Source: Noviherbaspirillum suwonense (GTDB lineage Bacteria; Pseudomonadota; Gammaproteobacteria; Burkholderiales; Burkholderiaceae_D). From it: a stretch of 64,000 nt of DNA. This document shows, piece after piece, positions 9,374 through 38,498 of the stretch. The notes beneath the pieces were generated by a model, which saw only the letters and a list, made by a program, of their open reading frames with translations, made no database searches and was not told the origin of the DNA. The DNA is taken from the NCBI RefSeq assembly GCF_900182955.1, contig NZ_FXUL01000012.1:1-64000 (forward strand), in the 5' to 3' direction. The position numbers and the translations under genes were made by a program. Every line of letters starts with the position of its first letter. Positions within the stretch are counted from its first letter, which is position 1.

Positions 9374-9392
9374 GGGTCTCTCCTGATTGTGT

Positions 9393-10391: not shown

Positions 10392-11471
<1,080 letters not shown>

Positions 11472-11963
11472 TCAGATGTGGTAGATGTCGATCACCTGGT
11501 GGATGTAGTCGTTTTTCAGCACGACATACTTGTTCAGGATTTTCGGCGCCTCGCCGCTGAAGTCGATCACGTAGCGCGACATGCCGAAGTGACTGTAGTT
11601 GGCCTTGTAGCGATGGCTCAGCGTGTGCCAGTTGAAGCGCACGGTGCAGACGCCGGCGTCTTCGCTTTCGACTTCGACGTTGCTGATGTTGTGGCTGGTG
11701 CGCGTGCTCGGCATGGTGGCGCTGGAGCGCTCGGTCTTGATCCGGAATACCCGGTCTTCCAGCCCCTGCCGGCTCGGATAGTAGATCAGCGAAATCTCGC
11801 GCTGCGGGTCGCCGACCAGCGTGTCGTCATCGTCCCAGGAGGGCATCCAGAACACCGCATTCTGGTCGTAGCAGGCCAGCCATTCATCCCAGTGCTCATC
11901 GTCCAGCAGACGCGACTCGCGGTACAGGAAGTCGCAGATCCGGGTCCTGTCCACGGCGCTCAT
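11472..11963 (-). CDS. benB: benzoate 1,2-dioxygenase small (beta) subunit
   Basis: A 163-residue structural subunit of the aromatic-ring hydroxylating dioxygenase, with the usual layout: an N-terminal [22 protein letters not shown] helix pair followed by a cone-shaped sheet. It assembles with BenA as an alpha3beta3 hexamer. The start at 11961-11963 ([11 protein letters not shown]) overlaps the benA stop codon by four bases (ATGA type), which indicates translational coupling. The frame is open further upstream only because it overlaps benA. Confidence 0.95.
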
Positions 11964-21036: not shown

Positions 21037-21207
21037 ACCCAGCCTGGTTGGATTGCCGCGCCCCTGCGCATGCAGGCGACCGCGGCCGGTCCGTCGACGC
21101 GTCGACTTGTCGCAAGAACGAAGCGGGGATTTGCAGACTTCGGCATCGATTCATAGGGAAGTCACATTGCGCGTCTAGCCTCGTCGTTTTCCAAGCGAGG
21201 AGCTGCA

Positions 21208-22818: not shown

Positions 22819-22993
22819 GGAGAACGTCTGGTCCGCGCCTACCTGCTGAAACGGTGCAGGCGCCAGTTTCCGAAGGCCGGCCGTTGCCACTAGGCGTCAA
22901 CGGCGCATGGACGTTCCGCGGGCTTTGCCCAACCGGCTGTGCTTCCGCCGCAGGAGCGCCGCGCCATTGTCGGCTGCGACGGCGCCGGCTGCG

Positions 22994-23641
22994 TCAATTC
23001 CCCTTGTCGGACAGATAGCGGGACGCGAGCACCGCCGCCTCGACGCGGCTGCGCACCTGCAGTTTTTGCAGGATGTTGGTGACGTAGCGCTTGATCGTTT
23101 TCTCGGACAGGTTCAGCTCGTCGCCGATCTCGCGATTTTTCATGCCCGAACCGATCATGGACAGGATGCGGTACTCGCGCTCGGTCAGGTCTTCCAGCGG
23201 ATCGGCGTCCGCCCCGCTGTTCATGGCGAGCAGCATATGCGCGGCAAGCGACGGCGTCACATAGGCATCGCCGGCCGCGACCGTCCGTATCACCTTTGCC
23301 AGCTCCTGGCTCGACACCCCTTTCAGCACATAGGCCCTGGCGCCCGCCTTGAAGGCTTTCAGCAGCTTGTCCCGGTCCTCCGAGCTGGTCAGGATCACGA
23401 TCGCCGTGGCGGGGCAGGCGGCCGATATCTTTTCGGTGCTGACCAGGCCGTCCCAGCCTGGCATATGAATGTCGAGCAGGACCACGTCGGGCATCAGCTC
23501 CTGCACCATGGCCAGCGCGGCTTCGCCCGAGCCGGCTTCGCCGACGACCGTTATCTGCCCGGCGCTGCCCAGTGCATGCACGACGCCCTGCCGGAAAATG
23601 GGATGATCGTCCACCACGACCACGCGGATGTTTTCAGGCAT
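22994..23641 (-). CDS. NarL/FixJ-type response regulator
   Basis: A 215-residue regulator. The receiver domain has the acidic pair D11/D12 (VVVVDDHPIFRQ), phosphoacceptor D57 (VVLLDIHMPGWDG) and conserved lysine in YVLKGVSSQE. A LuxR-type helix-turn-helix follows (LTEREYRILSMIGSGMKNREIGDELNLSEKTIKRYVTNIL). AGGAG is eight bases before the ATG at 23639-23641, so this start is preferred to the ATG two codons earlier. The start overlaps the end of the kinase gene by eight bases, so the two are translationally coupled. Confidence 0.88.
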   Translation of the reverse strand: MPENIRVVVVDDHPIFRQGVVHALGSAGQITVVGEAGSGEAALAMVQELMPDVVLLDIHMPGWDGLVSTEKISAACPATAIVILTSSEDRDKLLKAFKAGARAYVLKGVSSQELAKVIRTVAAGDAYVTPSLAAHMLLAMNSGADADPLEDLTEREYRILSMIGSGMKNREIGDELNLSEKTIKRYVTNILQKLQVRSRVEAAVLASRYLSDKGN

Positions 23642-25049
23642 GTTCATCGCTCCTGACCCTGAACGGCAATCCCGCCTGGATGACCGTCCCGTGCCCGGGG
23701 CAGGTATGCAGCCCGAAATCCCCGCCAAGCGCTTCAACCCGCTCGCGCATGCCCTTGATGCCGAGGTGCCCGTGCTCCGGCACCGCCTCGAGGTCGAAAC
23801 CCATGCCGCCGTCGGCGATCCTGACATGCACGCAGCTGTCGTCATACCACAGCTCGACTCTCTGGTTCACGCCATTGGCGTGCCGGTACCCGTTCAGCAG
23901 CGACTCCTGCAGGATACGATACAGCGTGATCTTCACCGGCAGGATCACGTCGCGCTCTTCCTCGGGCATGACGACGTCGACCGGCATGTGGACCTTGATC
24001 TGGTAGTCATGCACCGATCGCATGACGACCTGACGGATCGACAGCGTTTCCAGGTCAGGCAGCTGCAGGCCGGCGGCGATGGTGCGCAGCTCGCCCAATG
24101 CCGCCTTCAGCAATGCGCGCACGGTCGGCGATTCACGGTCATTGCGTTCCTGCAGTTCCTGTTTCCTGGGACAGGTTTCGCAGGCGTCGCACAGGGTTTC
24201 CACCTTCATCAGCGCCAGGCCAAGGTCCTGCGCCGGACCGTCGTGCAGATCCGCGGATATCCGGTGGAGAAAATCTTCGTTCAAGGTGGTCACGCGCGCC
24301 GCGGCCAACTTCACCTTATCGTGCAGCACACTGTTCTGCTCGTTTAATGCCGTCACGAGGTCAAGCTTTTCACGAAGGCTGGCGCGCTGGGCGTCGATCA
24401 TGTTGCTGCCATTGCGCACGATCTGGAAAAGAAGAACATATGCCGCGCCAAATACCGCGCCGACAATTAACCAGCTGTCCAGTTCAGCCATTTCCGCTTC
24501 GCGGTTCAGTTCTTCCGTCGTCATGAAAAACTCGGCGACTGCCAATATCTCGTCAGTTCCTTCGCGCCGGATTGGCGCATAGGATTCAATTAGCGTGCCC
24601 AAGTCGCGCAAGTCATTTTCCGGCTCATTATTCGATGGCGAAATTATTTCCGAATATATATTTCCTGCGTAGGCATCCGAGAGGCCCTCGCTAACTGGAA
24701 ATGACTTTCCGAGCAATGTTTTGTTTTTGGAATAAATCAATTTTCCCGCAGGCGCCCAAAGATAAAGCGCGGCCACTTTTTTCTCCAATCCCGTGTCGAC
24801 CAGAAACGAATCGAGCGCCGTGATGCTGGCCGGCGTCAGGTCGTGCGTTCCCGGCCTGAATTGCAGCCGATGGGAAAGAAGGGTATCAACATACAACGCT
24901 GCATCGCCTCCCAGACGGTGCGCCACGCCGTTCTTTACCGTGTAGCCGACCCATGAGCCGACCAGGATCGTGCACAACGCAATGACCGGAAAGCTGGCGA
25001 TCAGAAATTGACTTGAAAGACGGAAATGATCAAAGGATGAAAATTTCAT
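23634..25049 (-). CDS. membrane histidine kinase (HisKA_3 type) with a C-x2-C-x2-C motif
   Basis: A 471-residue sensor kinase. One membrane helix (about residues 13-35), an extracytoplasmic sensor region (36-190), a second helix (191-211) and a coiled-coil linker lead to the HisKA_3 domain with H269 (SADLHDGPAQDLGLALMKVE). Directly after it comes C287-x2-C290-x2-C293. The ATPase domain (LYRILQESLLNGYRHA, HGHLGIKGMRERVEALGG) completes it. The partner is the NarL-type regulator downstream. The start at 25047-25049 is chosen because it places the first membrane helix near the N-terminus; its ribosome binding site is weak. The cysteine cluster could bind a metal or iron-sulfur centre, as redox-sensing cysteines do in NreB, but the spacing differs. 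Confidence 0.87.
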   Translation of the reverse strand: MKFSSFDHFRLSSQFLIASFPVIALCTILVGSWVGYTVKNGVAHRLGGDAALYVDTLLSHRLQFRPGTHDLTPASITALDSFLVDTGLEKKVAALYLWAPAGKLIYSKNKTLLGKSFPVSEGLSDAYAGNIYSEIISPSNNEPENDLRDLGTLIESYAPIRREGTDEILAVAEFFMTTEELNREAEMAELDSWLIVGAVFGAAYVLLFQIVRNGSNMIDAQRASLREKLDLVTALNEQNSVLHDKVKLAAARVTTLNEDFLHRISADLHDGPAQDLGLALMKVETLCDACETCPRKQELQERNDRESPTVRALLKAALGELRTIAAGLQLPDLETLSIRQVVMRSVHDYQIKVHMPVDVVMPEEERDVILPVKITLYRILQESLLNGYRHANGVNQRVELWYDDSCVHVRIADGGMGFDLEAVPEHGHLGIKGMRERVEALGGDFGLHTCPGHGTVIQAGLPFRVRSDEHA

Positions 25050-25382
25050 GATCGATTCAATCCGGATTATGAATTTTTCAGGATTAAGCAGGGGGAAGAA
25101 AGTCCAGCTTGCCACGGGACGAAAGCCCGTGAAGCCTATGGACTAAAGTCTATCCGCATTGACGACGAATGTAGCGAAATTTTCACGGTTATTTTTAAAC
25201 CTGCCGAGGCTTGACTTTAATCAAAGGCGCGGGTCCGGTGAAAGCGAATCTATGTCGGCGGACTGCTTTCTTTTGTAATTCCTTCAAAACGGGAATGCGT
25301 CCCGATTTCGGCGAATATGCATCTATTCGCTGTACTTAATCGACTAACTGGCAAATGGAATTAACCTGCCGCCGGGATTTAT

Positions 25383-25399
25383 TGGCGCGGCACGGGCAT
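25383..25399 (+). promoter_or_regulatory. weak sigma-54 promoter candidate before the multicopper oxidase
   Basis: TTGGCGCGGCACGGGCA has the invariant GG and GC ten bases apart and a good -24 half, but the -12 half is GGGCA instead of TTGCA. Transcription would begin near 25411, ahead of the AAGGAGG at 25419-25425. The match could be chance in G+C-rich DNA. Confidence 0.25.
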
Positions 25400-25434
25400 T
25401 TATTGCCTCGAATTTGTACAAGGAGGGTTGTTGC

Positions 25435-27621
25435 ATGTACCTCAGCACGAAAGCGTCCCCCCAGCAGGTCAGGGAAGCGTTGAAGGCGCGTGAAAACCGC
25501 CAGGAAATCGTCAGGGCCTTGTCGCATGGGCAGGTGTCGCGGCGGGACCTGTTGAAGTGGGGCCTGTTCACCGCCGGCGGCATGCTGGCAATGAAGGGCG
25601 GGCTCAATCCGTTCGTGGGCAATGCATTGGCCGATTCGATTCCGACCGGGCTGCCCCTGAGTCCGCTATTCGGCGTCAAGCCGTTCAGCGCGCCGCTGCC
25701 GCGCTGCGATGTCCTGAAGCGCAACCCGGTGTCGAGCCTGAGCCCGGCGCCGACCAAGGAGGCCAACACAACCGCGACCTATGACATCGCGCCTGCGCTC
25801 GTGGGCGGCAGCACCGGCTTGAAGGGGCCGGCGGAAGGCCGCCCGCCGGGGCCGATCTGGGCGCACCAGGGATGGGAGAAATATTCGCCGCAGGTGGCCG
25901 TGGAAGTCTGGCAGCGCGGCGCGTCGGCATGCTACGACTACAACCCGCAGGTCGACAGTTCGCTGAACAATGGCATCGATCCGAAGGCCGCGGTGCCGTG
26001 CAGCTTCCATCCGCAGTTTCCCGTCCAGAACCCCGGCAACCTGTGGACCTTCGAGGGCAACGCGCCGCCCAAGCTGCTGCTCGCCCGGTATGGCGAGCCG
26101 GTGCTGTTCAGGCATCACAACGACCTGAATCCCGATATCACCAAGAATGGCGGCTTTGGCCGCAACACCATCAGCACGCATGAGCACAATGGCCATCATG
26201 GCGCGGAAAACGACGGCTTTGCCGGCGCCTTCTTTTTCCCCGGCCAGTACTACGATTACCACTGGCCGATCGTCCACGCCGGCGTCAACAGCATCAATCT
26301 CGAGGCAGCCGACGCCAGGTGCGGCACGCCGGACGGCAAGGGCGGCATCACCAAGCTACCCGGCGACTGGCATGAGACCATGAGCACCCACTGGTTCCAT
26401 GACCACATGTTCAGCTTCACCGCGCAAAATGTGTACAAGGGCGTCGCGGCCATGTTCAACCTGTACAGCTCGCTGGACCGCGGCAATGAGACCATCAACG
26501 ACGGCGTGAACCTGAGGCTGCCCAGCGGCAGGGCCAAGGACTGGGGCAACCTGGACTATGACGTCAACCTGATGCTGGCGGACAAAGCCTTCGATCAGAG
26601 CGGCCAGATGGCATTCGACATCTTCGACTTCGACGGCTTCCTGGGCGACACGATGACGGTGAACCTTGCGTACCGGCCTTATTTCGAGGTCGAGCGGCGC
26701 AAGTACCGCTTCCGCATCCTCAACGCATCGGTGTCGCGGTTCTTCAAGCTGGCGCTCAGCGACGGCTCGCAGATCATCCAGATCGGCAACGATGGCAACC
26801 TGCTGCCCGCGCCGGCCTACCTGTCCGAACTCGACCAGCAGGGCATCGCGGAGCGTTTCGATGTCGTCATCGATTTCTCGCGTTACAAGAACGGCGACAA
26901 GGTCTACTTTGTCAACCTGGCCGAGCACCAGGATGGCAAGCGGGTGGCGAACGATCTGTCGCTGACCGAGGCGCTGTCGGGCAAGTCGCCCGACCCCTGC
27001 GTCGGCCGCTTCCTGGAATTCCGCATCGCCCGCAATGCCGCCTATCCGGACACCAGCCAGGTGCCCAGGGTGCTGATTCCCAACCCCGACCTGTCGAGGA
27101 TACCGGTGGCGCGCGAACGCACGATCGAGTTCGGCAGCGGCGCTGCCAGCCTGAAGACCTCGACCGCTGCGTCCGGCCCGTGGGGCTCGAAAGTGGATGG
27201 CGGCGCCATGCTGGCGGCGGACATCGGGCGCGTGTCCGCGGCGCCGAGGGCGGGCACCCGGGAAATCTGGACGCTGAAGAACGGCGGCGGCGGCTGGGAC
27301 CATCCGATCCACATCCATTTCGAGGAAGCCCAGATTCTCGCGCGCGACGGCAAGGCGAGCAATGTGCCGCTGTGGGAAAGGGGCCGGAAAGACGTGTTCC
27401 GGCTGCGCCCCGGCGGGTCGATGACGATCACGCTGCAGTTTCGCGACTGGGGCGGGATGTTCATGGAGCATTGCCACAACACGGTCCATGAAGACAACGC
27501 GATGCTGCTGCGCTGGGAGATCGACGATTCCGGCTCGCCGTTCCTGAGGCCGCTGCCGACGCCGATCCCGACGCCGCAGGGCGTCACGTTTCAGGCCAGC
27601 GTGCTGCCGAACGGCGCCTAG
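25435..27621 (+). CDS. Tat-exported multicopper oxidase
   Basis: A 728-residue multicopper oxidase. A twin-arginine signal lies unusually far in (SRRDLLKWGLFTAGG at residues 35-49, after a hydrophilic lead of 34). The four copper-binding motifs are present: HEHNGHH (near 250), STHWFHDHMF (near 320), HPIHIHFEEA (near 622) and MEHCHNTVHEDNAM (near 680), which also supplies the type 1 copper site. Such enzymes oxidise metals (Cu(I), Mn(II), Fe(II)), phenols or bilirubin with O2. AAGGAGG is well spaced from the ATG at 25435. It heads a plus-strand group with two small proteins, a SCO-cytochrome fusion and a MauG-like protein. Mn(II) or Cu(I) is a possible substrate, but nothing in the sequence fixes it. 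Confidence 0.88.
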   Translation: MYLSTKASPQQVREALKARENRQEIVRALSHGQVSRRDLLKWGLFTAGGMLAMKGGLNPFVGNALADSIPTGLPLSPLFGVKPFSAPLPRCDVLKRNPVSSLSPAPTKEANTTATYDIAPALVGGSTGLKGPAEGRPPGPIWAHQGWEKYSPQVAVEVWQRGASACYDYNPQVDSSLNNGIDPKAAVPCSFHPQFPVQNPGNLWTFEGNAPPKLLLARYGEPVLFRHHNDLNPDITKNGGFGRNTISTHEHNGHHGAENDGFAGAFFFPGQYYDYHWPIVHAGVNSINLEAADARCGTPDGKGGITKLPGDWHETMSTHWFHDHMFSFTAQNVYKGVAAMFNLYSSLDRGNETINDGVNLRLPSGRAKDWGNLDYDVNLMLADKAFDQSGQMAFDIFDFDGFLGDTMTVNLAYRPYFEVERRKYRFRILNASVSRFFKLALSDGSQIIQIGNDGNLLPAPAYLSELDQQGIAERFDVVIDFSRYKNGDKVYFVNLAEHQDGKRVANDLSLTEALSGKSPDPCVGRFLEFRIARNAAYPDTSQVPRVLIPNPDLSRIPVARERTIEFGSGAASLKTSTAASGPWGSKVDGGAMLAADIGRVSAAPRAGTREIWTLKNGGGGWDHPIHIHFEEAQILARDGKASNVPLWERGRKDVFRLRPGGSMTITLQFRDWGGMFMEHCHNTVHEDNAMLLRWEIDDSGSPFLRPLPTPIPTPQGVTFQASVLPNGA

Positions 27622-27692
27622 CAGGCGCGTCCGGCGAGGCCTGCAGCCAACGCAATGCAATGCAACGCAACCGTCAAAGACCGAGGTTCATC

Positions 27693-28172
27693 ATGAACAT
27701 GCACCGCTTCCGCAGCAGCCTGTCCAATGCCGTCCCGCCTGCCTTGATGGCAGCCGTGCTGATCGCCGCGCCGATGGCGGCCCAGGCGATCACGTCCATC
27801 CCGCCGACGTCGGTCGCAGTCAGCGGCAACGTCTCCGACGCCGCCGAAAACGTCAAGTTCAACGGCAACATCGCGGTGGAAGGCAAGGTCATCGACGACC
27901 TGGTCTTCAACAGCCCGCAGGTGCTTGAACTGGTGATCGACTTCAGCAACGTCAAGGGGGTGGGCAACAAGACCGGCAAGCAGTACGTCAACAGCGCGCA
28001 GGCCATCCTGCACCGCCCGCTGAAGTCGAAAGACATCGTCGAGGTGACGCTGCCGTTTTACTCGGAGAGCGACCCGGCGGACTCGCGCGCCGTCATCGCG
28101 TCGTTCGAAGTCTCGTTCAACGGCGCCAACAACGTGAAGATGAAACTGGACTTAAAGCCCGCCAAGTTCTAG
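27693..28172 (+). CDS. small exported protein of unknown function
   Basis: A 159-residue protein with a Sec-type signal peptide (VPPALMAAVLIAAPMAAQA, cleavage near residue 30). The mature part is polar and rich in alternating strand-like segments (SVAVSGNVSDAAENVKFNGNIAVEGKVIDDLVF, VEVTLPFYSESD), with no cysteine and no recognised domain. It lies 72 bases after the multicopper oxidase and 49 before the SCO-cytochrome gene, so it is very likely co-expressed. The position invites the idea of a partner or substrate of the oxidase or of the di-haem protein; that is inference only. Confidence 0.75.
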   Translation: MNMHRFRSSLSNAVPPALMAAVLIAAPMAAQAITSIPPTSVAVSGNVSDAAENVKFNGNIAVEGKVIDDLVFNSPQVLELVIDFSNVKGVGNKTGKQYVNSAQAILHRPLKSKDIVEVTLPFYSESDPADSRAVIASFEVSFNGANNVKMKLDLKPAKF

Positions 28173-28220
28173 CCGGAATGGCGACGCGGCCGGCGGCTTC
28201 TTTTTCGATGGGAATAGCAC

Positions 28221-29216
28221 ATGAACTTACCGACATTTCAACGAACTGTGCAGCGCTGCCGGCACGCCGGGGCGCTCGTCCTTGGGCTTGTCGTCGCGGC
28301 CGGCGGCCTGGGCGCAGGCGCCGCGTCCGCCGCGGCCAGGTGGGGCGCAGACTACTTCCCCGACGTGACGCTTACCACGCATGAAGGCAGGCCGGTCCGG
28401 CTTTACGATGACCTGCTCAAGGGGAAAGCCGTGGCCATCAACGTGATCTACACCAGCTGCACCGACGAATGTCCGCTGGAGACGGCGCGAATGGCGGAGG
28501 TGCAGCGGCTGATCGGGCAACATGCGGGCAAGGACGTGCTGTTCTACTCGATCAGCATCGACCCCGAGCATGACACGCCTGCGGTGCTCAAGGCCTATGC
28601 CGAGAAGTTCAATGTCGGACCGGGCTGGCTGTTCCTGACCGGGAAGAAGGACGACATCAAGCTCGTGACCCGCAAGCTGGGACTGTCGCGCAGCAGCGAC
28701 GCGGCCAATCGCGACGGCCACGCCAGCAGCCTGATGCTGGGCAACGAGCCGGCCGGCCAGTGGATGCGCAATTCGGCCGTCGACAACCCGCGCTTCCTCG
28801 CCGCCACCATGGGCAACTTCTTCGGCTGGGCCAAAGATGCGCCGGCTGCCAGCTATGCCGCCGCACAGGCGCTCGACGTGACCCGCGCGCAATTCACTTT
28901 CCAGAGCCGCTGTGCGGCATGCCACACCATCGGCGACGGCGACCGGATCGGGCCGGACCTGATGGGCGTGACGGAACGGCGGGAGCGGGGCTGGCTCGAT
29001 CGGTACCTGCGCGAACCGGAGAAAGTGCTCGCCGCCGGCGACCCGACCGCCAAGGCCCTGTTTGACAAATACCGCCAGGTCCGCATGCCCAACCTGAAGC
29101 TGGGCGAAGAAGACGTCGATGTGCTGCTTGCCTATATCAAGACGGCAAGCGCGCAACGGACGCCGGCCGCGCCATCGGCGCGGCAAGCGCACGGGCACCA
29201 GCACCACCACCACTGA
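28221..29216 (+). CDS. SCO1/SenC-cytochrome c fusion with histidine-rich tail
   Basis: A 331-residue exported protein. A signal peptide (to about residue 38) is followed by a thioredoxin-fold SCO domain with the copper ligands C80 and C84 (YTSCTDECP) and H167 (NRDGHASS). A class I cytochrome c domain comes next, with haem site C231-A-A-C-H235 and M289 (VRMPNL). The last residues are HGHQHHHH. SCO proteins deliver copper to, or reduce thiols of, copper-oxidase sites. Here a haem domain in the same chain could pass electrons, and the histidine tail could hold copper. It lies between the two small-protein genes in the oxidase group, so it may mature the multicopper oxidase rather than cytochrome oxidase. 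Confidence 0.88.
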   Translation: MNLPTFQRTVQRCRHAGALVLGLVVAAGGLGAGAASAAARWGADYFPDVTLTTHEGRPVRLYDDLLKGKAVAINVIYTSCTDECPLETARMAEVQRLIGQHAGKDVLFYSISIDPEHDTPAVLKAYAEKFNVGPGWLFLTGKKDDIKLVTRKLGLSRSSDAANRDGHASSLMLGNEPAGQWMRNSAVDNPRFLAATMGNFFGWAKDAPAASYAAAQALDVTRAQFTFQSRCAACHTIGDGDRIGPDLMGVTERRERGWLDRYLREPEKVLAAGDPTAKALFDKYRQVRMPNLKLGEEDVDVLLAYIKTASAQRTPAAPSARQAHGHQHHHH

Positions 29217-29359
29217 ATGACGAATGGCCGCAGCGCCGTCCAGGGCACGGCCTTCAAGACACAGCATGCCGTCGCGCGGCAGGAAAGGCCGCACGGCGGC
29301 AGAGCTGCCTGATGCACCGGGCACCGAATGCAAAACCGCTTTTTTGAAGGAGATGCCAC

Positions 29360-29695
29360 ATGCAGGCTGACCGCGAACTCGACGGACACGGACGGGCAGG
29401 CGAATGCGCGCGGTCGATTGCGCTTCCGAATTCACATGGCGGTCCGGGCAAACGCGCCGCACCGCGCAGCGTTCGCGCTGTCGCCGCGGGCGTGGCGCCT
29501 TCCGCCCAGTGCGCATTCCCGATAAGCCTCGTGCTCGCCGTGACGCTGCCGCAAGCGGGCAGCGGGCCGATTGCACCCGGCGGCGGCGTCATTCCGGCTG
29601 GCGGCGCCATCGCCACCGCGGGAACAGTCGAGTTCAGCGGCGCCCGCATCAATCCGGACAACGCTTCGGCCGCCGTGACGATCCAGGCCAGGTAA
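29360..29695 (+). CDS. hypothetical small protein
   Basis: A 111-residue frame whose ATG follows a strong GAAGGAG. The first 50 residues are basic and without family resemblance. A hydrophobic stretch (AFPISLVLAVTLPQA) is followed by a glycine/alanine-rich tail with repeated GG(G/A)xI pattern (PIAPGGGVIPAGGAIATAGT) and a strand-like end (GTVEFSGARINPDNASAAVTIQAR). The late hydrophobic stretch may act as an internal export or membrane signal. It sits between the SCO-cytochrome and MauG-like genes on the same strand. Coding status rests on the ribosome binding site and position. Confidence 0.5.
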   Translation: MQADRELDGHGRAGECARSIALPNSHGGPGKRAAPRSVRAVAAGVAPSAQCAFPISLVLAVTLPQAGSGPIAPGGGVIPAGGAIATAGTVEFSGARINPDNASAAVTIQAR

Positions 29696-29772
29696 CCCTT
29701 GCAATGCAACGGGAAGCGCCCGCCAGGCGCGCGGTCCATTGCCTTGCCTTTTAACTGCAGAGAGAAGAAACA

Positions 29773-31830
29773 ATGACCTTGTCCACGCCCCTTCTTACGC
29801 TTTCAGCGAGGCGCTTGCGGAACCATCCGCTGCCTTCGGACCGGCCTTCGTCGCGCGGTATACGCGCTCTTGCCGGCATCCTGGTTACGTTCTGCCTCGG
29901 CGGCGCCGTGTCTGCCGAACCTGCCGTCAGCGCGCTGTCCCTCAAGTCCGTTCCGATTCCAGGCCCGTCCCATGCGCTGTTGTCCCAGTTCGTCGCCGAC
30001 AAGACCGCTGCCATCCAGCTCGGCAAGGCGCTGTTCTGGGATGCGCGGGTCGGCAGCGATAACAAGACGGCTTGCGCGACCTGCCACTTCGCCGCCGGCG
30101 CCGACACGCGCGTCAGGAACCAGGTCAGCCCCGGCCTGCTGCGCCTGTCGCCGGGACCGGACCGGACCTTCCAGCTTGGCGGTGCGCCCAACCACAAGCT
30201 TTCCGCCGATGACTTTCCCTTCACCAGGTATGCCAGCCTGAACGACGCCGGTGCGCGCCTGTCGGACCTCAACGACGTCGCTTCGTCGGCCGGCGTATTC
30301 ACGACGGCGCAGGACGGCCTTGTCACGGTGAGCAGCAGCGGCGGCCCGGACAACTGCAGCTATGTGGCCGACGACGTAATCGGCCATGGCGGCGACGGCT
30401 TCAATATCGGCGGCGTGAACACCAGGCGCGTCGAACCGCGCAATTCGCCGTCGGTGATCAATGCCGTGTTCAATTTCCGCAACTTCTGGGATGGCCGGGG
30501 CAACAATGTGTTCAACGGCGGCGACCCGTTCGGCGCCCGTAACCCGCAGCCGCTGGTCTGGAAGCGCGTCAATGGCGTGATGGTGCGCGTGCCGGTGCTT
30601 CTGCCTTCGTCGTCGCTGGCGTCCCAGGCATCCGGCCCGCCGCTGTCCGGGACCGAAATGAGCTGCCGCAACCGGGCGTTCGTGATGCTGGGCCAGAAGC
30701 TGCTCGACCAGGACATCCTGGCAGGGCAGGCCATCTCGCCGAACGACAGCGTGCTCGGCAAGCATGCGAAGTCGAACCGGCCCAGCTATCGTCACCTCGT
30801 GAAGCAGGCATTTCGCCCGGAATGGTGGAACGCGCCGTCGACCGCGCGCTTCACCAATGCCGACGCGCGGGCGGCCGCCTCGATGGACCTGGACAAGCCG
30901 GCGCAGTTCCGGCAGGCTTTCGGCGTCGACGTCGGACAGGCCGAGCTGAACTTCAGCCTGTTCTTTTCGCTTGCGATCCAGCTCTATGAAAGCACGCTGG
31001 TTTCCGACGACACGCCGTTCGACCGCTATGTCGCCGGCGACAGCAAGGCGCTGGACGAAAGCCAGAAGGCGGGCCTTGCCATCTTCATGGGCAAGGGACG
31101 CTGCATCAATTGCCATGGCGGCGCCGAACTCAGCAATGCATCCTTTCGCAACGTGACGAGCCAGCGGCTGGAACGCATGGCGATGGCGAACGGCGCGAGC
31201 AAGGTCTATGACACCGGCTTCTATAACATCGGTGTCCGGCCCTACGGCGAAGACGTGGGCGTGGGCGGCACCGATCCCTGGGGCCAGCCGCTGTCGGAAA
31301 GCATGATGGCGCTGAGCAGCCTGTCCAAGCTGCTGGGCAATGACTTCAGCAGCGCCCGAAACCCGGCGCCTGCCGGCCCCGATGACGTCAGCGTGATGGG
31401 CGCATTCAAGACGCCTGGCCTGCGCAACGTGGAATTGACCGGCCCGTATTTCCACAATGGCGGCAAGTCGACGCTGATGCAGGTGGTCGATTTCTATAAC
31501 CGCGGCAGCGATTTCGCCGCTGAAAACCGGTCCTACCTTGCGCCCGACATCCAGCCGCTCGGCCTGACGGAACCGGAAAAGATGTCGCTCGTGTCCTTTC
31601 TCGTTTCCCTGACCGACGAACGCGTGCGCTGGCGGAAAGCGCCGTTCGACCATCCGTCGCTCTGCCTGCCGCAGGGGGCAATCGGCGATACGCTGTGGGT
31701 CAAGCCGGATGCGGCAAATCCGGCGAACGCTGCCGACGACCTGTCCGGCGCATGCATGGGCGAAGTGGGCGCGTCCGGAAGCGGCGCGCCGCTCGGCACC
31801 TTCCTGTCGCTGCCGCCGGGCCGCCATTGA
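29773..31830 (+). CDS. large MauG/cytochrome c peroxidase-like di-haem protein
   Basis: A 685-residue exported c-type cytochrome. After a signal sequence ending near AVSAEP (residue 50), the first haem site is C101-A-T-C-H105 and the second C444-I-N-C-H448 (GKGRCINCHGGAEL). The elements LGKALFWDARVGSDNKTACATCH and FKTPGLRNVELTGPYFHNGG are typical of bacterial di-haem peroxidases and MauG. It is nearly twice the usual length, because the spacer between the haems is about 340 residues instead of about 150. MauG-type members use high-valent haem to oxidise protein residues; peroxidase members reduce H2O2. GAGAGAAG precedes the ATG. It closes the multicopper-oxidase group. Confidence 0.87.
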   Translation: MTLSTPLLTLSARRLRNHPLPSDRPSSRGIRALAGILVTFCLGGAVSAEPAVSALSLKSVPIPGPSHALLSQFVADKTAAIQLGKALFWDARVGSDNKTACATCHFAAGADTRVRNQVSPGLLRLSPGPDRTFQLGGAPNHKLSADDFPFTRYASLNDAGARLSDLNDVASSAGVFTTAQDGLVTVSSSGGPDNCSYVADDVIGHGGDGFNIGGVNTRRVEPRNSPSVINAVFNFRNFWDGRGNNVFNGGDPFGARNPQPLVWKRVNGVMVRVPVLLPSSSLASQASGPPLSGTEMSCRNRAFVMLGQKLLDQDILAGQAISPNDSVLGKHAKSNRPSYRHLVKQAFRPEWWNAPSTARFTNADARAAASMDLDKPAQFRQAFGVDVGQAELNFSLFFSLAIQLYESTLVSDDTPFDRYVAGDSKALDESQKAGLAIFMGKGRCINCHGGAELSNASFRNVTSQRLERMAMANGASKVYDTGFYNIGVRPYGEDVGVGGTDPWGQPLSESMMALSSLSKLLGNDFSSARNPAPAGPDDVSVMGAFKTPGLRNVELTGPYFHNGGKSTLMQVVDFYNRGSDFAAENRSYLAPDIQPLGLTEPEKMSLVSFLVSLTDERVRWRKAPFDHPSLCLPQGAIGDTLWVKPDAANPANAADDLSGACMGEVGASGSGAPLGTFLSLPPGRH

Positions 31831-32191: not shown

Positions 32192-33544
32192 ATGGGAGTC
32201 AAACCCGGGCATGCATCAGGCGAGCCATATCAGTTCAAGCGCCGCTTCCTGTGCGTCAGCCTGCTCGTCATTGCAGTGGTCACGGTCCTGTCATCCATCC
32301 TGCTGTCGCGTTTTCTCTCCGCAAGGCTGCTGATGCAGGATGCCGAAGCGATGCGTGCCTTTGTGCACGGCATCGTGGTGGTGGAACAGGCGAGCGACTA
32401 TTTCCTGGGCGAGCGGGACCAGGATGAAAATATTGAGGAATTGTTCAAGCACATCGCGTCCATGCCGGACGTCGCTCGCGCCAATGTCTATGGGAAAGAC
32501 CAGCGCCTGCTCTGGTCCAGCAATCGCCAGATCATTGGGCAGCGGTTCGACAGCAATCCCGAACTGGAAGAGGCGCTGGCCGGAAAGCTGCTGATCAAAA
32601 GCGGCAAGGTGGGCGACCATGACAAGCCCGAGCACGTCGCGCTGGGCAACGAGCAGTTGCGCTTTGTCGAGATCTATATTCCGGTCAGCCAGGGCGAGAC
32701 GGGCAACATCATTGGCGCCGTCGAGGTCTACCGGCTTCCTTACGCACTGTTCGCCACGATAGACCAGGGCCAGCGGATCATCTGGATCAGCGCCATCCTG
32801 GCCGGCTTTCTTCTGCTCGCGGCCGTCTACGGCATGGTGCGGCGGGCCGACCAGGTCATACGCAGCCAGCAGAGCCGGCTGGTGGAGACCGAGACCCTGG
32901 CGGCGCTGGGGGAAATCGCGTCCGCGGTGGCCCACGGCATACGCAATCCGCTGGCCTCCATCAGGTCGTCGGCCGAACTGTGGCATGACTCGAGCGAGCC
33001 TGGCGTGCATGAGTCGGCGCGCGACATCATGTCCGAGACCGATCGCCTGGAAAAGTGGGTAAGGGAACTGCTCACCTATTCGCAGCCTCTCGAAGACCAG
33101 ATGACCGCGCTGAGGCTGCCGCCCATCATCCATGAAAGCGTGACCAGTTTTGCGCGCGAGTCCGAGCGCCGGGACGTCCGCATCAAGGTGCAGATCAACG
33201 AGTGCCTGCCGCCCATTGCCGGCGATCCCGCACTGCTGATGCAGGCCTTCAACAACCTGATCGCCAATGCGCTTGAAGCGACCGGGCCCGGCGGTGAAAT
33301 CATCATCAGCGGCGCTTCCGTCTCGAAGCACGTCGAACTGGCATTCACCGACAACGGCGCCGGCATTGCGCCTGAGCGAATGGCCCAGGTGGGAAACACC
33401 TTTTATACGACCAAGCGCAAGGGACTGGGCGTGGGGCTCGCGCTGGTGCGGCGCATCGTCAAACGTTTCGGCGGCACCGTCGTCATCGCGAGCCGGCAGG
33501 GCGTCGGCACCACCGTTACACTTTTTCTTCAGCGCGCATATTAA
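32192..33544 (+). CDS. NtrB-like membrane histidine kinase
   Basis: A 450-residue sensor kinase with two membrane helices (about 19-41 and 196-216) flanking an extracytoplasmic sensor region of some 150 residues. It has a HisKA dimerisation domain with H248 (LAALGEIASAVAHGIRNPLASIRSS), and an ATPase domain (NNLIANALEATGPGG, DNGAGI, TKRKGLGVGLALVRRIVKRFGG). GAGGGA precedes the ATG at 32192; an in-frame GTG 11 codons earlier lacks one. The stop is two bases from the start of the sigma-54 regulator gene, so the two form an operon. The sensed signal is unknown; position suggests an extracytoplasmic redox or metal cue. Confidence 0.9.
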   Translation: MGVKPGHASGEPYQFKRRFLCVSLLVIAVVTVLSSILLSRFLSARLLMQDAEAMRAFVHGIVVVEQASDYFLGERDQDENIEELFKHIASMPDVARANVYGKDQRLLWSSNRQIIGQRFDSNPELEEALAGKLLIKSGKVGDHDKPEHVALGNEQLRFVEIYIPVSQGETGNIIGAVEVYRLPYALFATIDQGQRIIWISAILAGFLLLAAVYGMVRRADQVIRSQQSRLVETETLAALGEIASAVAHGIRNPLASIRSSAELWHDSSEPGVHESARDIMSETDRLEKWVRELLTYSQPLEDQMTALRLPPIIHESVTSFARESERRDVRIKVQINECLPPIAGDPALLMQAFNNLIANALEATGPGGEIIISGASVSKHVELAFTDNGAGIAPERMAQVGNTFYTTKRKGLGVGLALVRRIVKRFGGTVVIASRQGVGTTVTLFLQRAY

Positions 33545-33546
33545 TC

Positions 33547-34968
33547 ATGTCCCATGACGTCCTGATTATTGAAGATGAACCCATCCTGGCCAAGAACGTG
33601 AAGGCTTACCTCGCACGTTATGGCTACGACTCCATGCTGGCGTTCAGCGGCGAGGAAGGACTGAACGCAATGAACAGCTTCCAGCCGGGCGTGGTGCTCC
33701 TGGACTATCACCTGCCCGACATGAATGGCTTGCAGGTGCTGGAACAGCTGCGCAAGCGCGAGGCCGGCATCAAGGTCATCATGATCACCGGGCATGGCAG
33801 CGTGCAGGTCGCCGTGCAGGCCATGAAGGGCGGGGCCTGCGACTACTTGTCCAAGCCCATGATCCTGAGCGAGCTGAAGCTGCTGGTCGACCAGGCAATC
33901 GATCGCGACAAGCGTGACATGAACCACGTCTATCCTCACGAACAGCCTGCCGGTCACCAGGGCCTTGAGCAGATGATAGGGACGTCGCTGCCCATGATGG
34001 ACCTCAAGGACAGTCTGCGCCGCCTGATTGCGGCGGAACATGTGCTGGAGGATAACGACGCACCCTCGGTGCTCATCGTGGGGGAAACCGGCACCGGCAA
34101 GGAACTGGTGGCGCGCGCCCTGCATTTCGAAGGCAGGCGCGGGTTGCAGCCATTTATCGAGATCAATTGCGCTGCCATGCCGTCTCATCTGCTGGAAGCG
34201 GAGCTGTTTGGCTATGAGCGCGGCGCTTTCACCGATGCGAAGGCGCGCAAGCCGGGGCTGCTGGAAGCAGCCGACGGAGGCACCTTGTTTCTCGACGAGA
34301 TCGGCGAAGCCGAACTGTCTTTTCAGTCCAAACTGCTGAAGGTCCTGGAAGAGAAGAAGCTGCGCCGCCTAGGCAGCCTGCACGAGATTTCGGTCAATTT
34401 TCGCGTCATCGCCGCCACCAACCAGGATCTCGAACTCCGGGTGCAGGAGGGAAAGTTTCGCTCCGACCTCTATTTCCGGCTGTGCACGATGCCGCTGAAC
34501 GTGCCGCCTCTGCGCGAGCGGGGGCATGACGTGCTCCTCCTGGCCAGAAATTTCCTGAAATTGCACGGCGCGCGTTATCGCAAGCCGGACCTGTTTCTCA
34601 CTCCCGGTGCTGAAATGGCCCTGCTGGACTGGCCGTGGCCTGGCAATGTCAGGGAATTGCGCAACACGCTCGAGCATGTCGCCCTGATGGCGCGAGACGA
34701 TGCAATTGGCGAGGGCCAGCTGGCGAAGCTCATCTCGCCCGCAGCCGTGCACATCGGGACCAGACCGCCGGCATGCGCCGCCGCCGGGCCGGTGGCTGGC
34801 CACCGACCTGCGGATGAATTGAACCTGGAAAAGCTGGAGCGCGATTGCCTGGTGCGCGCGCTGCAGAATACCGGATGGAATGTCACCCAGGCGGCAAAGC
34901 TGCTGGGCTTGTCCCGCGATACCTTGCGCTACCGGATGGAGAAGCACGGCCTGAAAAACGTGCAATGA
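33547..34968 (+). CDS. sigma-54-dependent response regulator (NtrC family)
   Basis: A 473-residue transcription activator with three domains. The receiver has E9/D10 and phosphoacceptor D53 (VVLLDYHLPDMNG). The AAA+ domain has Walker A GETGTGKE (179-186), the sigma-54-contacting GAFTDA loop (226-231; canonical GAFTGA with Gly to Asp at position five) and Walker B GTLFLDEIGE. A Fis-type helix-turn-helix forms the C-terminus (VTQAAKLLGLSRDTLRYRMEKHGL). GAFTDA is a known natural variant of the loop. It should activate a sigma-54 promoter; a very good one, with two matching dyads, lies about 265 bases downstream of its stop codon. Confidence 0.93.
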   Translation: MSHDVLIIEDEPILAKNVKAYLARYGYDSMLAFSGEEGLNAMNSFQPGVVLLDYHLPDMNGLQVLEQLRKREAGIKVIMITGHGSVQVAVQAMKGGACDYLSKPMILSELKLLVDQAIDRDKRDMNHVYPHEQPAGHQGLEQMIGTSLPMMDLKDSLRRLIAAEHVLEDNDAPSVLIVGETGTGKELVARALHFEGRRGLQPFIEINCAAMPSHLLEAELFGYERGAFTDAKARKPGLLEAADGGTLFLDEIGEAELSFQSKLLKVLEEKKLRRLGSLHEISVNFRVIAATNQDLELRVQEGKFRSDLYFRLCTMPLNVPPLRERGHDVLLLARNFLKLHGARYRKPDLFLTPGAEMALLDWPWPGNVRELRNTLEHVALMARDDAIGEGQLAKLISPAAVHIGTRPPACAAAGPVAGHRPADELNLEKLERDCLVRALQNTGWNVTQAAKLLGLSRDTLRYRMEKHGLKNVQ

Positions 34969-35110
34969 GCTTGCCAGGCTAACGATGAAACCCGGGCGTT
35001 CCAGGCCGCTCCCGCAAGCGTGCGGCGATGGTTGGAGAGTGGATTCGCCCACGCCTGCGCAGGATGATCGGCCGTCCTGGCCCGGAAATATGCGTTCCCC
35101 CGCATTAAAC

Positions 35111-35124
35111 GGGTCATATGACCC
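35111..35124. promoter_or_regulatory. enhancer-like palindrome 1 for the sigma-54 regulator
   Basis: GGGTCATATGACCC is a perfect 14-base palindrome with core GTCA-N2-TGAC, centred about 140 bases before the predicted sigma-54 start point. That is a usual distance for NtrC-type binding sites. Confidence 0.65.
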
Positions 35125-35144
35125 GGTCAAATCCCCCATGCCAC

Positions 35145-35160
35145 TGCGTCATTTGACGCA
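35145..35160. promoter_or_regulatory. enhancer-like palindrome 2 for the sigma-54 regulator
   Basis: TGCGTCATTTGACGCA has 7-base arms around TT and shares the core GTCA-N2-TGAC with the first palindrome, 35 bases away centre to centre. It is centred about 107 bases before the predicted start point. Two dyads with one core suggest a pair of dimer sites for the regulator at 33547-34968. Confidence 0.65.
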
Positions 35161-35233
35161 CTTGCCCGATAAGCCCTTCCGGGTTTCCTTTATAAAACAA
35201 TAACCTATGAAAAATGGTTAGCTGTTTGCAGCT

Positions 35234-35249
35234 TGGCATATCCATTGCA
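35234..35249 (+). promoter_or_regulatory. sigma-54 (-24/-12) promoter
   Basis: TGGCATATCCATTGCA matches the consensus TGGCACG-N4-TTGCA at both boxes, with GG and GC separated by exactly ten bases. Transcription would start near 35260, about 70 bases before the ATG at 35333. Confidence 0.8.
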
Positions 35250-35332
35250 ATACGTTAATGCGCTTCCAGCAGGAACAGTCCCGAGACTGAACTGCAAAAG
35301 AGCTTCCTTAACTTGAGCAAAGGATAGGTCCC

Positions 35333-36331
35333 ATGATTACTTCCTCTAATTACAGGCAACTGAACGCGCTGGACGATGAAAAAGGCTCCGGGCGGTGGTC
35401 ACGCTGCGCTACGGCAGCGGTTGTGTCGTCTTTTTGTGTAATGGCGGGAATGGCAAACGCAGCCGATTCTGCCGGGTGCGAGGGTGGCGGATTTACCGTT
35501 TTAAACCGGAAGGCTCCCCAGGACCTCGATGTGGCTGCAAATACGATTCCGTCGGTGATCACGGTCAGGGGCAAATACGTTGAATTCGATATCGATGCCA
35601 ATACCTTCGCCGTGCGGAATTATGTTTTGACCGGCGCGCCGAATCCTGCAGATATCACCGGCGGCGTGCGCACGGACGTTTTTCAGAGCAAGGTGCCGGA
35701 CCATAAGGGTCTGTTCCTCAACAGCGCGGTGGAATTAAGGCTCAGGGAAACGGAGCTCGTTATTCAGCGGGAAGGGCCGGGACTGACAATGAAAGTCCAG
35801 GCCAAGGATTGCGCCCAGGGTGGCATTTTCCAGATGGAAGTGGAGCGCGACGACCAGGCACGGACCTTGTTCACCCACACCCTGGCGCCCTCTGCGTTTT
35901 ACTTCGACAACCGTAAATTCCGTGAGCGGGAAGGCGCTACGCTTTCCTACAAGGACACGACCGTGGTCGTCACGCCTCGGGTCAACTTCGCCAATGACGT
36001 TTCAAGGAAGTTCGTTGGCCGCGACAGTCCGCAGGTGGCAGACCGGGTGCCTCATCCCGAATGCACCAACAGTATCGCCACGCGTACTGGAAGGCCAGTA
36101 GATGTCCAGCACTGCGGCGGCGTATCGCAGTGGCTCGTGGCAAGCGGCGGGCGCATGGGGCAGGTCATGGGCGAAGACTCGGTGGAAGTCGCTCCGCCGG
36201 CCACCGTTTGCACACGCAAATGCCAGGCCCAGAACCGTGTCCGCGGCCAAGCCGTTGTCCTTGGCTTTCCGTTTCCAGTGGCTGAGCCGGACCGGCTGAA
36301 GCCACGTTCGCCAACTATCCCGTTGCGCTGA
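35333..36331 (+). CDS. exported protein of unknown function, predicted sigma-54 target
   Basis: A 332-residue protein with a long N-terminal region and a Sec signal core (CATAAVVSSFCVMAGMANAAD, cleavage near residue 44). The mature part starts with ADSAGCEGGGF and has conserved-looking cysteines near CEGG, DCAQGG, ECTN, QHCGG and CTRKCQ, six in all, so disulfides are likely outside the cytoplasm. No domain is recognised. It stands alone: a sigma-54 promoter in front, an intrinsic terminator behind, and the gene for the matching activator just upstream. That layout suggests it is the dedicated output of the NtrB/NtrC-type pair. Confidence 0.8.
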   Translation: MITSSNYRQLNALDDEKGSGRWSRCATAAVVSSFCVMAGMANAADSAGCEGGGFTVLNRKAPQDLDVAANTIPSVITVRGKYVEFDIDANTFAVRNYVLTGAPNPADITGGVRTDVFQSKVPDHKGLFLNSAVELRLRETELVIQREGPGLTMKVQAKDCAQGGIFQMEVERDDQARTLFTHTLAPSAFYFDNRKFREREGATLSYKDTTVVVTPRVNFANDVSRKFVGRDSPQVADRVPHPECTNSIATRTGRPVDVQHCGGVSQWLVASGGRMGQVMGEDSVEVAPPATVCTRKCQAQNRVRGQAVVLGFPFPVAEPDRLKPRSPTIPLR

Positions 36332-36411
36332 CATGGGCGCCGCGGGAAATTGGTAAAGGAAGACGGAGTGCGCAACTGAACAATTGTCTGGGCATCCGTA
36401 GGTGGAAAGAA

Positions 36412-36444
36412 GACGCCCCTGGCATTGCCTGCCGGGCGTCTTTT
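36412..36444 (+). terminator. intrinsic terminator of the sigma-54 target gene
   Basis: GACGCCC (36412-36418) pairs with GGGCGTC (36434-36440) and is followed by TTTT. It begins 81 bases after the stop codon. Confidence 0.75.
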
Positions 36445-36739
36445 CCGTTCAACGCCGGGCAATGCGGTTTTCGGAGCTGCTGCCACCTGCGCGCCGCGTA
36501 CGCTGACGGATGCGGTTGAATGCGCGCTGGCAACTGGACTAAGGGTAAGTGCGCCATGGCCGGTGGCTGTGATTAACGATACGCCGCAGCAGTCGAAGGC
36601 TGCTTGCTGCCGGCAGCATTGCCGTGTCGCGGAATATCGGCGCGCTGGCGTTCATCCGGTACAGAATGGGTTGGCGGCCATTGGTCGCGACCGTCGAAAT
36701 CCCATCCGGCTGGCACTTTGGCCAAACTTTCGTGGAAGG

Positions 36740-36757
36740 TATGCTTGATCAAGCATA
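36740..36757. promoter_or_regulatory. HipB operator-like repeat 1
   Basis: TATGCTTGATCAAGCATA is a perfect 18-base palindrome with outer pattern TATGC-N8-GCATA. Known E. coli HipB operators read TATCC-N8-GGATA, so the layout is the same with a changed arm base. It lies 108 bases before the hipB start. Confidence 0.65.
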
Positions 36758-36793
36758 AAATAATTTTATTCTTTATCAGGCATATATTGTATT

Positions 36794-36811
36794 TATGCTT
36801 GATTCGGCATA
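36794..36811. promoter_or_regulatory. HipB operator-like repeat 2
   Basis: TATGC-TTGATTCG-GCATA repeats the same arms and spacer length 54 bases further on. The paired sites suggest cooperative repression by HipB or the HipBA complex. Confidence 0.65.
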
Positions 36812-36864
36812 GCATGACTTCATTACCTGATATGCATCATCGCGAAGGATAGGACTGCGGCGTC

Positions 36865-37155
36865 ATGAAAACCAGTATCACTACGTCCGGGCAACTCGGC
36901 CCGCTACTGAAGAAACTCCGGGTTGAAAAGGGGCTGTCCCAGGAAGCGCTTGGCGCCAAGATTGGTTTGTCGCAGGAGCGTATCTCGCGCATCGAGAGCC
37001 GGCCCGAGTCCGTGACGTTGGACCAGCTTCTGACCGTCCTGATGGCGCTGGACGCCGCGCTGGCAGTGGAGCCGCGCCTTTCCCTCGAGGATCAGGCGCG
37101 CTCGTCGGTCCCGGCTTCCGCTGGCCTGCGCACCGATGACGAGGAAACCTGGTAA
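36865..37155 (+). CDS. hipB: HipB-type antitoxin, XRE helix-turn-helix
   Basis: A 96-residue DNA-binding antitoxin. The XRE fold is clear: LGPLLKKLRVEKGLSQEALGAKIGLSQERISRIESRPESVTLDQLLTVLMALD. A flexible C-terminal tail ends in the tryptophan of DDEETW, like the C-terminal tryptophan of E. coli HipB. It would neutralise HipA and repress its own operon through the upstream TATGC-N8-GCATA sites. Its stop codon shares one base with the hipA start (TAATG). Confidence 0.88.
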   Translation: MKTSITTSGQLGPLLKKLRVEKGLSQEALGAKIGLSQERISRIESRPESVTLDQLLTVLMALDAALAVEPRLSLEDQARSSVPASAGLRTDDEETW

Positions 37156-38498
37156 TGGCCGGTCGTCCTTCAAAAACACGCCGCCTCGACGTCTGGATGA
37201 ACGGGCAGCTGGTCGGCCAGTGGAGCATCGCGGCAAACGGCGTTCAGCAATTCGCCTATGACGCAAGCTGGCACGACAGCCCTGCGGCCCGGCCGCTGTC
37301 CTTGTCGCTACCGCTAAGCCTTGGCACGAAAGCGGTGAGCGGCCACGCGGTGGCCAGCTATTTTGACAACCTGCTCCCGGACAGCGCCGTCATTCGCGCC
37401 CGGATCGCAAGCCGTCACGGAGCCGCCTCGGACGAAGCGTTCGACCTGCTGGAGAGAATTGGCCGGGACTGCGTCGGCGCCGTGCAACTGCTGCCGGCCG
37501 GGAGTTCGCCGCCGGACGTGCGGCAAATCACCAGCCGGCCCCTGGCTGCTGCAGAACTCGAGGCGCATCTGGAAGCCGTGGTCGGCGGCGTCGACCTCGG
37601 CATGCCGGCCGAAGACGAGTTGCGCATCTCACTGGCTGGCGCACAGGAAAAGACGGCTTTTTTGTACCACGAGGGCGGCTGGCATTTGCCCCAGGGCGCA
37701 ACGCCCACCACGCACATTTTCAAGCTGCCGATGGGCGATGTGGGCATGGTCCGGGCCGACTTTTCCATGTCGGTCGAGAACGAGTGGCTGTGCGCGAAGA
37801 TCATGCAGGCCTATGGCCTGCCGGCCGCCGACTGCGAAATCGGCCAATTTGGCCGGTGCAAGGTGCTGGTGGTCGAGCGTTTCGACCGCCGGTGGATGCA
37901 CGCTGGCTGGATTGCCCGGCTTCCGCAGGAAGATTTCTGCCAGGTCTTTGGACGCGGCTCCGGCCAGAAATACGAGGAAAAGGGCGGGCCTGGAATGAAC
38001 GACATCCTCGACAAGTTGCGCGGCAGCGTGAACGCCGAGCAGGACCGCAAGCGATTCCTGACCACCCAGCTGCTGTTCTGGATGCTGGCCGCACCCGATG
38101 GACACGCGAAGAACTTCAGCATTCGATTGCTGCCCGGCAGCGCGTTTGAGCTCACGCCGCTTTATGACGTGATGTCGGCTTGGCCGGTCATCGGCAGGGG
38201 GCCGCGGCAGTTTCAGTGGCAAAAACTGAAACTAGCCATGGCGGTGCGGTCGAAGAATGCGCATTACCGGATGTCGGATATCCAGCGCCGGCATTGGAAC
38301 ACGGTCGCCAAGCGCAATGCGATGGGCAGCGACTTCGAGTCCGTGATTGAAGACCTGCTCGCAAGGACGCCCGGCGTCGTCGAGGCCGTCGGCGCCCAGC
38401 TGCCACAGGGTTTTCCCGCGCAGGTCGCCGGACCGATCTTCGAAGGGCTGCTACTTCAGGCAAAGCGATTGGGCAATGCGGTGCCGGCGGGGGATTGA
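37155..38498 (+). CDS. hipA: HipA-type serine/threonine kinase toxin
   Basis: A 447-residue kinase toxin of the length of E. coli HipA. It has the N-terminal HipA_N region (VWMNGQLVGQWSI, LLPDSAVIRARIA), the nucleotide-binding loop (ISLAGAQEKTAFL), the strand VERFDRRW, and the catalytic D315 and N320 in APDGHAKNFSI with the metal ligand in LTPLYDVMSAWP. E. coli HipA phosphorylates glutamyl-tRNA synthetase and causes growth arrest and persistence; the target here is presumed, not shown. Key residues are intact, so the toxin is probably active. Expression is coupled to hipB. Confidence 0.92.
   Translation: MAGRPSKTRRLDVWMNGQLVGQWSIAANGVQQFAYDASWHDSPAARPLSLSLPLSLGTKAVSGHAVASYFDNLLPDSAVIRARIASRHGAASDEAFDLLERIGRDCVGAVQLLPAGSSPPDVRQITSRPLAAAELEAHLEAVVGGVDLGMPAEDELRISLAGAQEKTAFLYHEGGWHLPQGATPTTHIFKLPMGDVGMVRADFSMSVENEWLCAKIMQAYGLPAADCEIGQFGRCKVLVVERFDRRWMHAGWIARLPQEDFCQVFGRGSGQKYEEKGGPGMNDILDKLRGSVNAEQDRKRFLTTQLLFWMLAAPDGHAKNFSIRLLPGSAFELTPLYDVMSAWPVIGRGPRQFQWQKLKLAMAVRSKNAHYRMSDIQRRHWNTVAKRNAMGSDFESVIEDLLARTPGVVEAVGAQLPQGFPAQVAGPIFEGLLLQAKRLGNAVPAGD

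Follow-up and report, generated by a model that had tools for sequence, protein, structure and literature searches.

A sigma-54 promoter with paired upstream dyads very probably links a kinase/NtrC-type regulator pair to what is probably its single sigma-54 target, an exported-protein gene, in Noviherbaspirillum suwonense

We analysed a stretch of 64,000 nucleotides of Noviherbaspirillum suwonense DNA (contig NZ_FXUL01000012.1, positions 1 to 64,000), referred to below as the window. In it, the genes of a sensor histidine kinase (HK2) and an NtrC-type response regulator are followed on the same strand by a gene for a presumed exported protein, and a sigma-54 promoter and two dyads lie between regulator and exported gene. 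The features on which the argument draws are the following, in window coordinates.

22994-25115, minus strand: NarL-type pair, homologous to the pair found at loci L009 and L014
25414-27621, plus strand: multicopper oxidase (Pfam)
32192-33544, plus strand: sensor histidine kinase HK2, with HisKA and HATPase_c domains; the start is uncertain, 32159 or 32192
about 32321-32779, plus strand: extracytoplasmic Cache/PDC-like sensor domain of HK2, from the predicted structure
33547-34968, plus strand: NtrC-type response regulator, with receiver, sigma-54 AAA+ and Fis-type HTH domains (Pfam)
35110-35125, no strand assigned: upstream dyad 1, CGGGTCATATGACCCG, a full GGG-N8-CCC site whose 14-mer lies at -123 from the -24 element
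35145-35160, no strand assigned: upstream dyad 2, TGCGTCATTTGACGCA, of the form GCG-N8-CGC, whose 14-mer lies at -88 from the -24 element
35234-35249, plus strand: sigma-54 -24/-12 promoter, TGGCATATCCATTGCA, a match to the strict pattern
35333-36331, plus strand: exported protein of 332 residues, with AAAGGA ahead of the ATG; its signal peptide was judged by eye
36409-36443, plus strand: intrinsic terminator hairpin (folding and shuffles)

The regulator has the make-up of an enhancer-binding protein, a sigma-54-interacting AAA+ domain combined with an HTH, in a genome that holds one sigma-54 gene (PF04552 match). Its loop reads GAFTDA, which we take to be a known variant of GAFTGA, in all six copies that we aligned, and the HTH is largely invariant among them. 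The nearest NCBIfam families were AtoC and then NtrC, with ZraR in eighth place, all of them far below cut-off; for HK2 the first two matches were AtoS and ZraS, likewise far below cut-off. The model of the HK2 sensor domain (pLDDT 75.8) resembled the extracellular domain of WalK at TM scores, by query length, of 0.65-0.69 and CitA (2j80) at 0.57-0.58, and sCache_3_2 matched HK2 at E 0.0098, below cut-off, and was absent in two relatives scanned. The extracytoplasmic domain of HK2 is thus predicted from its model to have a Cache/PDC fold, most like that of WalK and then CitA, an assignment that implies no ligand.

The -24/-12 element at 35234 has GG and GC at exact spacing, and the transcript of the 332-residue gene is predicted to start near 35255-35260. 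Dyad 1, with its core GTCATATGAC at 35113-35122, is a perfect 16-bp palindrome; in dyad 2, with its core GTCATTTGAC at 35148-35157, the 7-base arms are perfect and the TT centre is non-palindromic. Behind the exported gene, the terminator hairpin reached -25.3 kcal/mol (51-nt stretch folded; z -3.97), a stability equalled in 0 of 200 shuffles. An earlier sequence-only reading of this DNA had placed a sigma-54 promoter with exact spacing at 35234-35249, the end of the NtrC-type gene (34968) just upstream and an intrinsic terminator after the exported gene, and all of these are present. It had also described two perfect palindromes, which holds for dyad 1 but only for the arms of dyad 2, and had given dyad distances of 107 and 142 bases, which are right if counted from the transcript start near 35255 but not from the ATG, to which the dyads lie at 185 and 220. 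No sigma-70-like consensus site was found within 34900-36900, against a chance expectation of 1.1. As a candidate IHF site between dyads and promoter, we found just 2-mismatch matches in the window and at L069 and L070, and none at L012, L017 and L019, and we rejected it. Some 420 bp past the terminator, at 36865-38498, lies a HipBA-like toxin-antitoxin pair (HTH_3 protein and HipA).

Taken one at a time, these sequence elements carry little weight. A strict sigma-54 match is expected 0.22 times in 64 kb, and at least one appeared in 21 of 100 shuffled windows; GTCA-N2-TGAC, the motif shared by the two dyads, occurs twice where 0.69 are expected, and two or more appeared in 15 of 100 shuffles. 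The 200 bp before the promoter gave a different picture when scored for palindromes: in the 16-mer test the best one reached 0.002 and the best two were matched in 0 of 1000 shuffles, while the 14-mer test gave 0.017 for the best and 0.006 for the best two. A chance origin of two palindromes in these 200 bp is unlikely.

Across the whole 6.45-Mb genome the strict sigma-54 pattern has 42 matches, whereas its reversed control has 4. The sequence-only reading had proposed scanning the genome for dyad pairs at such promoters. When this was done, the site at 35234 was the only one of the 42 whose preceding 250 bp contain a strong dyad pair (it scored 22 of 24, the next best 18), and a GTCA-N2-TGAC pair spaced by 15-45 bp was found once in the genome and never in the reversed control. 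The pair is what counts, and a single site is uninformative, since exact GGGNCANNTGNCCC has 4 matches in the genome and its reversed control more, 8. Within the window there is no second strict sigma-54 site, be it before the kinase gene or elsewhere, and no second consensus match of at least 11/12. Judged over the strict sigma-54 sites of this genome, the 332-residue gene is probably the one sigma-54 target of the NtrC-type regulator, as the dyad pair occurs nowhere else in the genome and only this strict site bears it. The earlier claim that this gene is the regulator's main target is thereby sharpened to its being probably the only sigma-54 target, the other 41 strict sites having no comparable pair within 250 bp.

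Six copies of the kinase/NtrC pair were examined: that of the window and those at L012 (M. niastensis), L017 (Telluria aromaticivorans ML15P13), L019, L069 and L070. Kinase homologs at E <= 1e-70 were present in 4 of 392 genomes of the family, our own included, and all four lie among the 15 genomes that carry the exported gene; the kinase survey scored the best 4 candidates per genome and the exported-gene survey at most 5, so that copies may be missed. An intact exported gene adjoins the pair in five of the six copies. It follows the regulator in the window, diverges from the kinase at L012, L017 and L019, and is convergent with the regulator at L069. At L070 the gene is reduced to fragments (best tblastn E 3.6e-28, L069 protein against a 1.6-kb stretch); there, at 11425-12240, the decayed gene has kept an intact sigma-54 promoter and dyads beside an intact kinase/regulator pair.

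We scanned 19 loci for promoters with a slightly relaxed sigma-54 pattern, the window having been scanned with the strict one. At all six loci with the pair, the exported gene or what is left of it has a sigma-54 promoter before it, the five relatives each having one match, the sole one in loci of 11.7-21.0 kb; the 14 homologous loci without the pair have none. All six also carry two upstream sites between -132 and -87 from the -24 element, a best one of GGG-N8-CCC type and a weaker second one. The positions of the best and then the second site, with the consensus positions matched, are as follows.

Window: -123 (12/12) and -88 (10/12)
L012: -88 (11/12) and -109 (9/12)
L017: -108 (11/12) and -87 (9/12)
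L019: -87 (10/12) and -108 (9/12)
L069: -108 (12/12) and -131 (9/12)
L070: -109 (12/12) and -132 (9/12)

The best site is GGGTCATATGACCC in the window and GGGCCATATGCCCC at L069 and L070. Best sites scored 10-12 of 12 at the six pair-linked loci and 7-9 at the 14 loci without the pair, with a consensus that was picked after inspection and spans of 200 bp before the promoter for the linked loci and 350 bp before the start codon for the controls, which include near-copies (L015/L016/L018/L074 and L013/L022). Dyads that lie 80-150 bp ahead of the promoter are thus retained together with the activator, the strong site in six of six and the second one weak in the five relatives; as L069 and L070 come from one genome and L012, L017 and L019 from one clade, this amounts to about three independent lineages. 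The second site matches 9/12 in every relative, no more than the strongest controls do (9 each at L013 and L022), so that position is the sole support of the second sites. The best site of L019 alone gave p 0.062, and the best plain palindrome reached p 0.05 in none of the five relatives. Conservation of the dyads in relatives had been named as a point on which the sequence-only reading could fail, and in the main the reading stood up: position and GGG-N8-CCC are kept at all six loci, but GTCA-N2-TGAC, tried as the conserved site and rejected, occurs in none of the 200-bp upstream regions of the five relatives. From this comparison of sequences, GTCA is particular to the window and the GGG-N8-CCC pattern is the common element.

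The product of the target gene has about 280 residues past the presumed signal peptide, and its mature part contains six Cys that are invariant in 19 aligned intact copies. It had been described as having no known domain, and the protein indeed has no match in Pfam or NCBIfam and no PDB sequence match below E 0.25. The accompanying description of an orphan holds as regards annotation but not distribution: the gene occurs in 15 of 392 genomes of the family, its own included (with up to 5 candidates scored in each), and its own genome has a second copy, 67% identical (L007, G000:C12:176242-177135). After duplicates were merged, the 19 intact copies were 60-69% identical to the window copy, and 11 of the exported-gene loci come from named genomes. 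An order-wide profile search found the gene in 2 of 399 genomes, that of the window and a second one from the same bacterial family; two further loci, L020 (a MAG labelled Polaromonas) and L013 (a MAG labelled Burkholderiaceae), may fall outside that family. The predicted structure is all-beta, with a pLDDT of only 64.4. When this low-confidence model was compared with known folds (VIA), the periplasmic domain of YidC (5y82_A) came top (Z 10.6, 171 aligned, rmsd 3.6) and mutarotase-type rows followed near Z 9-10, while Foldseek gave a TM of at most 0.31 among the 50 matches listed. The nearest solved folds are, we presume, beta-supersandwich-type domains, and the model suggests, with low confidence, a galactose-mutarotase-like beta-supersandwich fold.

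Away from the kinase/NtrC pair, the same gene is found beside other regulators. At 9 of the 14 loci without the pair it lies downstream of ECF sigma factor, zinc-finger anti-sigma factor and subtilase genes, with a Gcw_chp protein in between at seven of the nine. We observed this as a conserved operon (ECF sigma, zinc-finger anti-sigma, subtilase, Gcw_chp where present, exported protein) at L015 6659-10846 and eight similar loci; the Pfam assignments come from members at L015 and L073, with L013 added for the sigma factor and the subtilase. At two further loci, L009 and L014, its divergent neighbour is a NarL-type pair akin to that of the window (22994-25115); the match to the regulator at L009 contains a stop. 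Three loci are left: at L079 the gene adjoins ilv genes, at L020 it has no recognised partner, and at L007 it lies beside decayed oxidase, SCO and MauG genes; at this last locus (G000:C12:164001-177347, about 5900-10200) the decayed multicopper oxidase, SCO-cytochrome and MauG copies lie near a contig end. In a tree of the family, copies group by context, with 5 changes against a shuffled mean of 9.1 and none of 200 shuffles as low, a grouping that need not make the regulator-linked copies one clade. The exported protein family thus adjoins three regulator classes, NtrC-type, ECF-sigma/anti-sigma and NarL-type.

At L009 and L014, a common palindrome, TCCGACTAAAGTCGGA or a near copy of it, precedes the exported gene. 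Its core, GACTAAAGTC, recurs in the window at 25141-25150, between the NarL-type pair and the multicopper oxidase, 26 bp before the start of the former and 264 bp before that of the latter. The 6.45-Mb genome has two copies of GACTAAAGTC against 9 for the reversed control, and the surroundings of the second copy (L102) gave no match to 15 window proteins. The sequence is a possible NarL-type operator. Since it stands just 26 bp from the pair's own start it may be autoregulatory, a role no less likely than control of the oxidase and one that makes a swap of regulators within one module less probable. We regard as tentative, and on balance doubtful, the wider reading in which an undescribed family of six-Cys beta-supersandwich envelope effectors, here mainly of Oxalobacteraceae, would have been wired separately to three unrelated control systems, with a NarL-type regulator swap within one module; in this reading the protein may, like ZraP, feed back on its sensor. 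Around the palindrome, window positions 19534-31830 hold genes for a tyrosinase, a PhoD-like phosphatase, the NarL-type pair, the multicopper oxidase, a 170-aa protein, a SCO1-cytochrome c fusion and a MauG-like di-heme protein, a possible copper or metal oxidation island. This oxidase cluster was considered as a sigma-54 target and rejected: it has no strict site, the sole one in the window being at 35234.

If the promoter and dyads were chance matches, then the gene would be read from another promoter. That a single strict match turned up in 21 of 100 shuffled windows speaks for such an accident, but position and kind of the elements are kept at the six pair-linked loci and absent at the 14 others, and 34900-36900 offers no sigma-70-like consensus site, with 1.1 expected, to take over transcription; we consider this explanation very improbable. 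Alternatively, the dyads could be sites of another protein, such as a repressor or global regulator, with the NtrC-type regulator using other sites or acting elsewhere. The GTCA-N2-TGAC motif is palindromic and simple enough for 0.69 chance occurrences in a window, the two sites are 35 bp apart in the window and 21-23 bp apart in the relatives, and the relatives' second site is no stronger than the best controls, all of which would suit a foreign binder. A best site of 10-12/12 nevertheless accompanies the regulator at six of six loci, against a best of 9 at the 14 without it, and the regulator's HTH is conserved, so we judge this unlikely.

The kinase/NtrC pair might also mainly control the multicopper oxidase, SCO and MauG genes as a metal-oxidation regulon, with the exported gene a minor or accessory target. 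The model for such a regulon is MnxSR, in which MnxR is of NtrC type. The oxidase-SCO-MauG cluster lies directly upstream of the pair, and the kinase/NtrC copy at L070 has a multicopper oxidase and a SCO gene about 5 kb off. PMC11930936 describes two-component control by MnxS1/MnxS2-MnxR, with predicted IHF and sigma-54 sites at the mnxG and mcoA promoters, before the multicopper oxidase genes, of a Mn-oxidising Pseudomonas. In the window, the sigma-54 promoter precedes the exported-protein gene and not the oxidase (strict pattern), with no other strict site and no second consensus match of at least 11/12, and L012, L017 and L019 have no oxidase homolog of at least 60 bits in 11.7-21.0 kb; we think it improbable that the oxidase genes are the main target.

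We therefore favour the wiring in which HK2, the NtrC-type regulator, the GGG-N8-CCC sites and the sigma-54 promoter serve a dedicated exported-protein gene. This wiring is very probably real, since the layout of the DNA sites is preserved in related bacteria, and the weak second sites in the relatives lower our confidence slightly. The sites, their link to the regulator at six loci, their uniqueness in the genome and the domain make-up are direct observations. HK2 would sense an extracytoplasmic signal through its Cache-like domain and would phosphorylate the regulator, which would bind the GGG-N8-CCC dyad and its weaker partner about 85-135 bp upstream of the -24/-12 promoter and, with sigma-54 RNA polymerase, turn on one dedicated gene in a presumably RpoN-dependent manner. 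The product, a Cys-containing protein that is presumably exported and disulphide-bonded, would then act in the envelope.

Among known systems, ZraSR-ZraP, the zinc/envelope-stress two-component system of enterobacteria, resembles this arrangement in its membrane kinase, its NtrC-type regulator and the sigma-54 promoter of one neighbouring exported protein, and ZraS is the second-best NCBIfam match of HK2. PMC4987338 describes ZraR as driving the divergent sigma-54 promoters of zraSR and zraP. Here, by contrast, the kinase gene has no strict sigma-54 site before it, kinase and regulator miss the cut-offs (180.7 of 479 bits for ZraS, 298.2 of 760 bits for ZraR), and the target is no ZraP-family protein by Pfam or NCBIfam but one of ~280 residues, beta-rich in its model. 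AtoSC gave the best NCBIfam scores for both HK2 and the regulator, but at about half the cut-off for the regulator (372.6 of 714) and under a third for the kinase (193.3 of 646). The most likely reading is that the exported protein is an envelope-stress or metal-related effector under a dedicated two-component system, a functional parallel to ZraP from outside that family.

We found no literature on the kinase/NtrC/exported-protein system in open-licence papers, an absence that weighs little. The mechanism is textbook and the trio of kinase, regulator and exported protein is new. It offers a tight regulator-operator-target set for an uncharacterised two-component system and the first regulatory context for a protein family that lacks Pfam or NCBIfam annotation. 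Since one and the same protein stands beside three regulator classes, comparing their inducers could reveal its role.
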